The notes below the pieces were generated by a model. The model was not told the origin of the DNA. It searched no databases and saw only the letters and a program-made list of their open reading frames with translations. From Deltaproteobacteria bacterium (GTDB lineage: Bacteria > Myxococcota > Myxococcia > Myxococcales > 40CM-4-68-19): a stretch of DNA of 43,949 nucleotides. The stretch is taken from contig JANYKT010000039.1 in the NCBI GenBank assembly GCA_025358085.1, forward strand, positions 1 to 43,949. The letters run 5' to 3'. The position numbers and the translations under genes are program-made. Below are positions 12,825 through 16,175 of the stretch, one piece after another (positions within the stretch are counted from its first letter, which is position 1; each line of letters opens with the position of its first letter).

Positions 12825-13436
12825 TCAAGTGGTGTCGTGGCAACCGACGCGCAACAGCCAGGTCTCGGGGCCTGCGACCGGCGCGGCAGGCCCGGGCGAG
12901 CAGGCGAGATACCGCACCGAGCTGAACGGATTTCCGAATGAGGCGCTGATTTTTTCGCCCCAGGCGCGCGCGTGGTGCGCGAAGTTCATCAGCACGTAGC
13001 GCAGCGCGCGGGCGGCCTCGCGCGGCGTCTTCAAGATATGTGCGTGGTAGCGATCGCCGAACACGCGGCCCTTCCGCTTCATCATCCGGTTGAGCGCCCG
13101 CGCGAGCCGCACTTCGAGCCCCTTCATTCCGCGCGCGAGCGACTCCTTGCTCCCGGCCTCGACCAGCAGATGCAAGTGATTCCCCTGCACGGAATAGTGG
13201 ACGAGCCGGAAACCGAACCGCTGGCGCCCGGCGTGAAAGGCCGGCTCGAGAGCGCGCAGGGAGCGGAAGCTGCGCAAATTCCAGCAGCCGTTCGCGACCC
13301 GCAATGTGACGTGGACCGGGTGTCGCGCCGCGAGATCGTCTCGCTGCAGGTGGGGCATGCCCGAGTGCTTCGAGCGCTTCCGCCCTGCCCCGGCACGCAG
13401 GCCTCCCCGCGAGTTGAACCTCAGCTTCGCCTGCAT
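12825..13436 (-). CDS. REP-associated tyrosine transposase (RAYT, Y1_Tnp)
   Basis: The 203-residue protein starts at ATG 13436 with QAKLRFNSRGGLRAGAGRKR, the usual basic lead of deltaproteobacterial RAYTs. VHVTLRVANGCWNLRS follows, then the HUH-type metal motif in GNHLHLLVEA and the tyrosine region GRVFGDRYHAHIL. RAYTs are domesticated IS200/IS605-like single-strand transposases linked to spread of REP hairpins. Just upstream of its start (13519-13564) lie two GC-rich hairpins of REP type. The longer in-frame start at 13622 would translate those hairpins and is rejected. Confidence 0.85.
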   Translation of the reverse strand: MQAKLRFNSRGGLRAGAGRKRSKHSGMPHLQRDDLAARHPVHVTLRVANGCWNLRSFRSLRALEPAFHAGRQRFGFRLVHYSVQGNHLHLLVEAGSKESLARGMKGLEVRLARALNRMMKRKGRVFGDRYHAHILKTPREAARALRYVLMNFAHHARAWGEKISASFGNPFSSVRYLACSPGPAAPVAGPETWLLRVGCHDTT

Positions 13437-13518
13437 GATTTGATTATGGCAGACAATTGGTAAATATCGAGTTTCGGCGCTCACGAAAGGGATGGTCATT
13501 TTTTGATCGTGGCGCTCC

Positions 13519-13564
13519 GGCCCTTCGGGCCTCCGCTTGTGCGGGGGGCTACGCCGCCCCCCGC
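13519..13564. repeat. REP-like hairpin pair next to the RAYT gene
   Basis: GGCCC-TTC-GGGCC at 13519-13531 is followed 9 bases later by GCGGGGGGC-TACGCC-GCCCCCCGC at 13541-13564, a perfect 9-bp stem. They lie 83 bases upstream of the RAYT start and downstream of the ZIP-like gene. Pairs of GC hairpins beside a RAYT are the classical REP/BIME arrangement. Only one copy is present in this window. Confidence 0.65.
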
Positions 13565-13625
13565 AACGCCCCCGGGCGCGCAGGTGCAGCCAGCAGCGAC
13601 AAGGCGCTGCTCCGGGAACCAAGCG

Positions 13626-15104
13626 CTACTCGCGGTGTCGCAGCGGCGCGAACCAGCCGCGCACGCCCGCGCCCCACACGGTCGCCGCAACGAGCGCAAC
13701 CAGCAGCAGGGCCGCGAGGGACTGTGCCGGGTGCGCCAGCAGCTGGGAAGTCAATGGCAGCGAGGCAAGAGTCAACGACGCGCTCGCGGCGGGAAAACCG
13801 ATACGCCCGCCGAACGCTGCGACCGCGACGCAGGCCACGGCCGTGCCCGCCACGCTCACGCGCGCGGTCCGAATCCGGCCGAGGTGCAGGAGCGCGCCGC
13901 AAGCAACCAGCGCCAGGGCGAGACCGGGCGGAACTCCCTTTGCCACCAGTACGGCGGCAAGCAGCGTGGCTCCCGCGACGTCGATGCGCGCTGCGAGCGG
14001 CACCACGAGCAGGAGCGCCACCGCCCGAGGCTCGCCCGGCAAAGAGGTAGGCGCGAGAGTCGCGAGACTGGCCGCCGCAACGAGAGCAACCAGCAGCCAC
14101 GGGGCCCGGCGCCGCAGCTGCGAGAGGGCCTGCTGCCTCAGAGCCGCCAGTCTCAGACCCGCAAGTCTTTGGCCCGGCGCCTCGAGCGAGCCCCGTTCGC
14201 GCGGCGAGAGCAGGAGCAGCACGAGCAGCGTCGCCGCGGCGGCTGGCCCGCCCAGCAAAAGGGCGATGAGAACGGCGTCGACGGGCAGCCGCGTCCACCG
14301 GCTGGCGAGAAGCCCGGCGACCAGCGCGGGCGAAACGGCGAGCCCCAGCGCCAGGAGCGTGCGTGCGAATCCGGCGCTTGCGTGCGGCTGGAGGAGCGCC
14401 CCGAACCCAGCCACTCCCAGCCCCGCAAAGCACGCGAGCAAGTCGCAAGCAGGCTCCCAGCGAGAGGCGAAATGCTGCTCGCGAATTTCATCGGCGACGA
14501 CATGCAGCAGCGCGCCGGCGGTCACCGCGGTCGCCACCTGCAGCACCGCCATATCGGTACGGAGCGCGGGCAGGAACGTGCTGCAGAGCACGCCGGTCAC
14601 GCCCGCCCCCGCGATGACGAAGACTCGCAGCAGCGCCGCGCGCGCACCCAGCAGCTCGAGAAAGGGCAGCGTCACCGCGGCCGTCAGCGGCGCGTGGTGC
14701 GCCACCAGCGCGATCTCCAGGTCGAGGTGACCCTCGGGTGCCTGCAGTGCCGCCACCAACGCGAGGCCCTCGACCACCGAGTGGAAGATCAGCGCGGCAA
14801 AGCCCACCTCGGCCGCGACGCGCGGACCGGTCAGCCCGCGTGCTCGCAAAAGACCGGGGCCGAGCGAGCGCGCGGCCAGCTCCAGCAGCCACGGGAGCGC
14901 GAAGCCGAGCGCAATCCAGAGCAGCGCGCCCGCGCCCATGGCGGGCAGGAGCTCGGGCAGCAGGTGGAAGGCGACCACGCCGGCTGCGGCGGCGAAGGCG
15001 AAGGTGCGCGTCAGCTCGAGCAGCGTCCGGCGCCGCTGCGCAACGAGGGCCAGTGCGCCGCCCGCCAGCGCGGAGAGAGCGGCGAGCGCGACGGCGAGCA
15101 GCAC
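13626..15104 (-). CDS. ZIP-like metal permease with extra C-terminal membrane domain
   Basis: The 492-residue protein has about 14 hydrophobic segments. The first half shows ZIP hallmarks: AFHLLPELLP, FHSVVEGLAL (HxxxE of helix IV), ALVAHHAP and LLHVVADEI (metal-ligand H and E in helix V). The second half, from about residue 260, has GVPPGLALALVACGALLH, like permease proteins of the ArsP/DUF318 type, so this may be a fusion or an enlarged ZIP. GTG 15104 lies 2 bases after the Fur-family stop; CTG 15110 would overlap it. Co-transcription with the regulator supports import of zinc, iron or manganese. The metal is not deducible. Confidence 0.7.
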   Translation of the reverse strand: MLLAVALAALSALAGGALALVAQRRRTLLELTRTFAFAAAAGVVAFHLLPELLPAMGAGALLWIALGFALPWLLELAARSLGPGLLRARGLTGPRVAAEVGFAALIFHSVVEGLALVAALQAPEGHLDLEIALVAHHAPLTAAVTLPFLELLGARAALLRVFVIAGAGVTGVLCSTFLPALRTDMAVLQVATAVTAGALLHVVADEIREQHFASRWEPACDLLACFAGLGVAGFGALLQPHASAGFARTLLALGLAVSPALVAGLLASRWTRLPVDAVLIALLLGGPAAAATLLVLLLLSPRERGSLEAPGQRLAGLRLAALRQQALSQLRRRAPWLLVALVAAASLATLAPTSLPGEPRAVALLLVVPLAARIDVAGATLLAAVLVAKGVPPGLALALVACGALLHLGRIRTARVSVAGTAVACVAVAAFGGRIGFPAASASLTLASLPLTSQLLAHPAQSLAALLLVALVAATVWGAGVRGWFAPLRHRE

Positions 15105-15529: not shown

Positions 15530-15546
15530 CGGACGCCACGCTAGCG

Positions 15547-15569
15547 TAGATGCAACAGAGTTGCATCTA
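15547..15569. promoter_or_regulatory. Probable Fur-family operator (perfect 10-bp inverted repeat)
   Basis: TAGATGCAAC, a centre AGA, then GTTGCATCTA: ten complementary bases on each side. It sits in the 85-base gap between the divergent Fur-family gene (start 15529) and the GDT1-like gene (start 15615). Size and 10-3-10 layout suit a Fur/Zur/Mur dimer site. TTGCAT within the right arm may double as a -35 for the plus strand, but no clear -10 is seen. Confidence 0.75.
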
Positions 15570-15614
15570 GAAAAACCTTGCCCGCCAGCGGACAATCCCG
15601 CATGAAGGCGCGCC

Positions 15615-16175
15615 GTGAACCTGCCCGCGCTCCTCGGTGCCTTCGGGCTGGTCTTCCTGCTCGAGCTGCCGGACAAGACCGCCTATACGGTCCTCATCCT
15701 CTCGACTCGCCACCGCGCGCTGCCGGTCCTGCTCGGCTCGATGGCGGCTTTCGCCATCCAAAGCGCCTTCGCGGTGCTGCTGGGGACGATGCTGCACCTG
15801 CTCCCCGCCGCACTGCTCGACTGGGGCGTGCTCGCCCTGTTCGCCGGCTTCGGCCTGCTGCTCCTCTGCGGCAAGGAGGCGAAAGCGGTCGAGCGGCCGA
15901 TGCCCGATGGCCACGTCTTCCTCACCAGCTTCGGGCTGGTCTTCATCGCCGAGTTGGGTGACGCCACGCAGCTGGCCACGGCCGCCATGGTGGCGCGCCT
16001 GAACGATCGCTGGTCGGTGTTCATCGGCGCGACGCTGGCGCTCTGGGCAGTCGCAGCCATCGCGGTCACCCTGGGCCAAAAGCTTGGCGACCGCATCCCG
16101 AAACTGCTGGTCCGGCGCCTCGCCGGGACGATCTTCCTCGTGCTCGCGGTCTACGTGGCGCTGAGCCATCTCTGA
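15615..16175 (+). CDS. GDT1/TMEM165 (UPF0016) family cation exporter, MneA-like
   Basis: The 186-residue, six-span protein has two family signatures, LELPDKTAYT and AELGDATQLATAA, variants of the E-x-G-D-K/R-T metal motif. Bacterial members export Mn2+, and eukaryotic ones move Ca2+/Mn2+ against protons. It starts at GTG 15615 with AAGG 7 bases upstream. The stop overlaps the convergent aminotransferase by 25 bases. Divergence from a Fur-family gene across a shared operator supports a manganese or related metal-homeostasis role. Confidence 0.88.
   Translation: MNLPALLGAFGLVFLLELPDKTAYTVLILSTRHRALPVLLGSMAAFAIQSAFAVLLGTMLHLLPAALLDWGVLALFAGFGLLLLCGKEAKAVERPMPDGHVFLTSFGLVFIAELGDATQLATAAMVARLNDRWSVFIGATLALWAVAAIAVTLGQKLGDRIPKLLVRRLAGTIFLVLAVYVALSHL

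Follow-up and report, generated by a model that had tools for sequence, protein, structure and literature searches.

We find that the palindrome in front of a Fur-superfamily regulator gene is, with a probability of roughly 0.75 judged from sequence comparison, the operator of that regulator, which, when loaded with a metal that is most likely zinc, would repress its own operon with a ZIP-like transporter (fur-ZIP). The stretch analysed, here called the window, comprises 43,949 nucleotides of a Deltaproteobacteria bacterium contig (JANYKT010000039.1, assembly GCA_025358085.1). In the mechanism that we propose, a dimer of the metal-loaded regulator, most likely holding zinc, would occupy the pair of TGCAAC half-sites that lies a short way ahead of its start codon, and so keep fur-ZIP from being transcribed. 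When the metal is scarce, the regulator would release the operator, allowing both products of the operon, the ZIP-like importer and itself, to be made. That the regulator binds this DNA, that it represses and that its metal is zinc is what we infer; what lies before us directly is the box, its family-wide conservation at the operon, the operon itself and a Fur fold with conserved metal-type residues.

The site reads TAGATGCAAC-AGA-GTTGCATCTA, and the sequence-only reading had both its letters and its coordinates exactly right in calling it a flawless palindrome. It is also AT-rich in a GC-rich background, as that reading said, with a GC content of 39% compared with 66.8% for the window. It is the single box in an intergenic gap of 85 bp (15530-15614), yet its supposed central placement proved wrong, as it lies 17 nt from the ATG of the fur-like gene (15529) and 45 nt from the GTG of the GDT1 gene (15615). 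Palindromicity alone proves little, and perfect inverted repeats with 10-bp arms are not unusual as such: the window contains four perfect repeats with arms of at least 10 and a loop of at most 8, where 20 simulated windows had 0 to 5 each (mean 1.45). The remaining three perfect repeats are G+C-rich. As a sequence, however, the site is exceptional: with up to three mismatches allowed, the window has two occurrences of GATGCAAC-N3-GTTGCATC where 0.22 would be expected. Reading GATGCAACAGAGTTGCATC, the site is not a classical Fur box, which excerpts of PMC545781 describe as a GATAATGATNATCATTATC-like A+T-rich repeat. A scan for sigma-70-like promoters at the locus found none. The fur strand also has a terminator-like hairpin with a T run shortly before the box.

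Table 1. Coordinates of the features discussed, in the window unless a locus (L) or genome contig (G, C) is given.
Feature	Position	Strand	Basis or remark
Operator, Zur-type box (predicted)	15547..15569	.	Inverted repeat with three-nucleotide spacer
Left arm	15547-15556		TAGATGCAAC
Right arm	15560-15569		GTTGCATCTA
Conserved GCAAC-N3-GTTGC core	15552-15564		Inside operator
17-bp match to ATGCAACNNNGTTGCAT	15550-15566		Exact
Fur-superfamily regulator, 140 aa	15107..15529	-	PF01475, alignments, structure model
ZIP-like metal transporter	13626..15104	-	PF02535, E 7.9e-7, 29.0 bits, under the 35.1 cut-off
C-terminal membrane half of ZIP-like protein (about residues 235-492)	13626-14400	-	Without Pfam match
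GDT1-family cation/proton antiporter	15615..16175	+	PF01169, 132.8 bits; divergent neighbour
Terminator-like hairpin and T run	15578-15595	-	
IS200/Y1-type transposase-like gene	12825-13622	-	PF01797
murB copy of the box	G000:C105:10531-10549 (core at 4035 of L159)		GTAGATGCAACAGAGTTGCATCT
Other near-perfect intergenic site	L156:3269 (G000:C45)		GCAACACTGTTGC
Sites near zigA, Cys-poor S14/S18 or DUF1826	L134, L136, L138, L139, L143, L144, L145, L146, L148, L149		Within 200 bp
Tandem boxes (G121)	L134:3979 and 4020		Upstream of DUF1826 gene
Boxes upstream of lipoprotein genes	L151:3973; L152:3979		G087; G094
Putative lipoprotein genes	L151:4068-4712; L152:3150-3896	+; -	Repeated CGEHGHSHGDHCHCDAGY-like units
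HGITPDEHTWPITFSYAIGSY membrane protein	L206:1547-2449; L207:1547-2449; L059:2004-2912	+; +; -	Saccharibacteria

The decisive evidence, at the level of sequence, is conservation upstream of orthologous fur genes. The window's family comprises 12 genomes, of which 10 have an ortholog of the regulator and nine have the sequence upstream of it (G011, where this sequence is missing, was left out of the box counts, and L054 to L057, which represent G010, G007, G008 and G009, respectively, were counted once). The box stands upstream of the fur-like gene in all nine loci. Its 15-bp core is exact in eight of them and carries one mismatch in G004; GCAAC and GTTGC are invariant throughout, with the outer bases and the spacer variable. 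The two family genomes that have no fur ortholog (G003 and G006) have no promoter box, the single match in G003 being intragenic. Together with the match to a published predicted Zur-type consensus described below, the nine-locus conservation bears out the initial assignment of the palindrome to the Fur family.

We assign the box to fur-ZIP because all 10 of 10 loci have fur and ZIP side by side, whereas four of nine have GDT1 across the box (of the other five, four have an aminotransferase there), and because no box accompanies the two GDT1 genes found at other places, in G002 and G009. The description of the site as lying between two divergent metal genes therefore fits the four loci where GDT1 adjoins, but it is fur-ZIP that the box follows. 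GDT1 was rejected as the main target on the same counts, and is a possible second target that is not conserved. One bidirectional operator serving fur-ZIP and GDT1 alike, and so linking import and export, would agree with the single box in an 85-bp divergent gap and with the repetition of this arrangement in the four loci. We consider it unlikely, if not to be lost from sight, since five of the nine loci keep the box without an adjoining GDT1, the distant GDT1 genes are boxless and the fur start is the closer one to the box.

The regulator, whose start codon we fixed by ortholog alignment, passes the gathering score of the Fur superfamily (50.6 bits against PF01475, cut-off 23.1). Its recognition helix, DRVSVYRN, spans residues 52-59, and its two CxxC pairs lie at 94/97 and 135/138. 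These four cysteines (C94, C97, C135 and C138), a putative structural zinc site, are invariant in eight family proteins and in 21 aligned proteins; the G010 regulator, which has an in-frame TAG, and the incomplete protein of L062 were left out of the protein alignments. The candidate sensory ligands are H70, C81, H89/H90 (or C88) and E102. A first AlphaFold2 model built on eight close sequences was poor (pLDDT 66.6) and was discarded, and a second one with a pLDDT of 86.0 was used. The predicted structure shows a winged-helix and dimerisation fold for which Foldseek returns Fur, Zur and PerR, the best TM-score (0.82-0.85) being that to the E. coli Zur-DNA complex (PDB 4mtd). Excerpts of PMC4219657 give the site B ligands of E. 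coli Zur (EcZur) as H77, C88, H96 and E111. In our alignment, H77, C88 and E111 correspond to H70, C81 and E102 of the regulator, and H96 aligns with S87, beside C88-H89-H90, so that the fourth ligand is ambiguous.

Zinc is the likely sensed metal because the structural cysteines are conserved, H77, C88 and E111 of EcZur have aligned counterparts and the best TM-score is that to E. coli Zur; the regulator most likely works like Zur. We do not file it as a certified Zur, since its 45.6 bits fall far short of the cut-off of 167 for the NCBIfam Zur equivalog (NF008646) and a wider zinc regulon was sought in the window genome and not found. NCBIfam gives weak PerR and Fur matches for the regulator as well.

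The ZIP-like gene is read after fur, its GTG following the fur stop by 2 nt. Its product carries HSVVEG and HHAP motifs and an additional C-terminal membrane part; in this operon, which the box precedes in nine of nine loci, the ZIP importer match itself is under the Pfam cut-off. The C-terminal membrane half is kept in family homologs. An IS200/Y1-type transposase-like gene adjoins the ZIP gene on its other side.

In its letters, the predicted operator is of a known kind, the ZUR_D type. In the portion of Rodionov et al. (2004, PMC545781) that deals with it, ATGCAACNNNGTTGCAT is a predicted site that precedes znuABC-zur in two genomes of Desulfovibrio. The window site matches it exactly over 17 bp and likewise precedes an operon with a metal transporter and a Fur-family regulator, whereas the operon is znuABC-zur there and fur-ZIP here, and the ZUR_D site is itself a prediction. 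E. coli Zur resembles the window regulator in fold, in the four structural cysteines and in three of the four sensory ligands. It differs in its recognition helix (PPTVYRA rather than DRVSVYRN) and in its motif, which excerpts of PMC6103462 give as TRWNAYRWTATAWYRTNWCA, with other half-sites; the window regulator, moreover, misses the NCBIfam equivalog cut-off. The closest solved sequences are the actinobacterial Zur proteins (M. tuberculosis FurB, 2o03; S. coelicolor Zur, 3mwm), with FurB, a Zur, the closest of all. In contrast to the window protein, they have the helix LTTVYRT, and they group apart from it in a tree whose deep forks are weak. The literature, in the excerpts that bear on this question, yielded no Myxococcota Zur box. 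A study of 2009 covered 26 genomes including Myxococcus xanthus with A+T-rich Zur profiles and, in the excerpted part of its text, has no Zur site near the M. xanthus ribosomal-protein paralogs (PMC3087516).

Within the window genome, the recognisable regulon, as predicted from sequence, is one operon. The 15-bp core TGCAACNNNGTTGCA occurs four times exactly in 5.42 Mb and eight times with at most one mismatch, and its reversed control not at all. The three other exact cores are intragenic (murB, a HAD hydrolase and a methyltransferase), and the only other near-perfect intergenic site among those examined precedes a gene of the histone-deacetylase family (PF00850) by 77 bp; in this genome the motif thus fails to define a regulon, contrary to the sequence-only reading. 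The genome scan gave 26 places with at most three mismatches, and gene context covers the 10 that hold GCAACNNNGTTGC. Among the sites examined, no further promoter box was found by metal genes, with ribosomal paralogs outside this search. The copy in murB is identical to the window box over 23 bp, which is very unlikely to be plain chance. It is missing from 10 of 10 family murB orthologs, and the intragenic copies were rejected as regulatory sites on this ground. Genes resembling znuA are present in 10 of the 12 family genomes, and the 12 znuA loci fetched were without a box (best score 9.2), so znuABC was rejected as a co-target; such boxless loci are odd for a zinc regulator. No zigA was found in the family genomes, except for a 31-residue fragment in G005. 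The lack of a second site near other metal genes, which the sequence-only reading had set as a refutation, would thus have refuted it on the window genome alone; the comparative data do not, and the predicted regulon shows itself only in relatives.

In the phylum, ATGCAACNNNGTTGCAT was found in 21 of 195 genomes, and the reversed control in none. We fetched all 22 sites outside the window's family. Ten are no more than 200 bp from DUF1826 or from the zinc-sparing genes zigA and Cys-poor S14/S18, one lies 50 bp upstream of a CbiM-like gene, another 29 bp upstream of another fur-like gene, and the remaining sites are beside other genes. A zigA representative clears its NCBIfam cut-off (638.5 bits against 600), and CxxC is absent from all six of the S14, L28 and S18 proteins that we checked, which suits zinc-free paralogs. 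A simple gene finder chose an opposite-strand ORF at the window fur-ZIP, and gene contexts elsewhere were therefore taken from family-model matches; those of the sister loci were judged by the likeness of protein starts. In G121, a DUF1826 gene is preceded by two tandem boxes, and L28-like and S14-like genes are in the vicinity. In G087 and G094, a putative lipoprotein gene has a box 83 bp ahead of it; with its repeated units, the product has the look of a zinc scavenger that Zur controls.

We also scanned with a score matrix built from the nine family fur sites only, at a threshold of 15 that was our own choice. The 30 zigA loci used are among the matches listed (any zigA match occurs in 47 of 145 genomes). 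Upstream of zigA, the matrix hit within 450 bp in 17 of the 30 listed loci and within 1 kb in 22, leaving eight with no site above threshold. Neither in the other 93.5 kb nor at 20 loci of another Fur paralog did it give a match, and its reversed form gave none. An earlier matrix scan with a threshold of 11, limited to 250 bp of zigA, had hit 14 of the 30 listed loci. The family f4 regulators near the box have another ligand pattern, DPHPH, with no Cys81, and the tree does not join them with the window protein.

To look beyond the phylum, we used a protein search of genome contigs that gave 16 loci, four of them in the window's family and the other 12 mostly in MAGs of Saccharibacteria and Bdellovibrionota. 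The 12 far loci were picked by protein and not by box. TGCAAY-N3-RTTGCA occurs 12 times in the 12 far genomes, in 11 of them, and within 1.2 kb of the regulator gene in eight of the 12. No such box was found in G195; in G203 the exact box is intragenic and a looser one lies upstream of the regulator. The sole box of G201 and of G205 is upstream of a 300-aa membrane protein gene with a weak DsbD_2 match, and in G196 a homolog of this protein is the divergent neighbour across the box. All 12 far loci encode DRVSVYRN, a helix that was among the peptide patterns finding them and was thus selected, as the box was not. Three members of the window's family have D[VL]VSVYRN, and DRVTLYRN/T is the helix of the f4 and G153 regulators; in Fur, PerR, EcZur and actinobacterial Zur the helix residues are different. 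A single origin of the helix carriers is not supported, because the tree does not join all of them. Boxed or neighbouring genes in Saccharibacteria include VIT-family and DsbD_2-like membrane proteins, with no pointer to zinc. Downstream of the box and close to a VIT-family gene, one Saccharibacteria membrane protein (HGITPDEHTWPITFSYAIGSY) turns up repeatedly as a neighbour; it is possibly a so far unstudied metal transporter.

The same operator and autorepression could instead belong to a regulator that senses manganese or iron in the manner of Mur, Fur or PerR, with ZIP carrying that metal and GDT1 exporting manganese. The divergent GDT1 of four loci in nine, the boxless znuA loci, the VIT-family genes by related regulators or boxes in Saccharibacteria and the weak PerR and Fur matches in NCBIfam all point this way. 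Against these stand the identity of the box with the one at zinc-economy genes in other parts of the phylum, the conserved Cys81 in a Zur-like ligand pattern and the best fit to Zur structures, and we hold a manganese or iron sensor to be rather improbable. An RNA hairpin or attenuator, or a chance palindrome, would account for perfect 10-bp arms around a 3-nt loop, a repeat not rare in simulation, but is highly improbable given that letters are conserved and not pairing (GCAAC/GTTGC invariant in nine of nine, outer pairs often mismatched) and that the motif recurs at other promoters; chance is rejected here on conservation, not on palindromicity.

Beyond the operator of a most likely zinc-loaded autorepressor, we regard it as an evenly balanced proposition, drawn from sequence, that a cross-phylum set of Fur-family regulators with the helix D-x-V-[ST]-[VL]-Y-R-[NT] reads TGCAAY-N3-RTTGCA and not the A+T-rich boxes of Fur, Zur and PerR. 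Such a portable code would extend from Myxococcota to Bdellovibrionota and Saccharibacteria, and the regulon of the window's family would have shrunk to one self-limiting regulator-importer operon.

For the Myxococcota, the finding would provide a zinc-type operator for use in genome scans. In a large-genome sister family, the box lies beside ribosomal-protein paralogs of the kind considered in the 2009 study, and a box of this kind would explain why its A+T-rich profiles, in the excerpted text, failed near those of M. xanthus (PMC3087516). The box also points to unstudied candidate zinc genes. The point of interest is the pairing of helix and box, a recognition-helix signature that appears tied to its operator across phyla.
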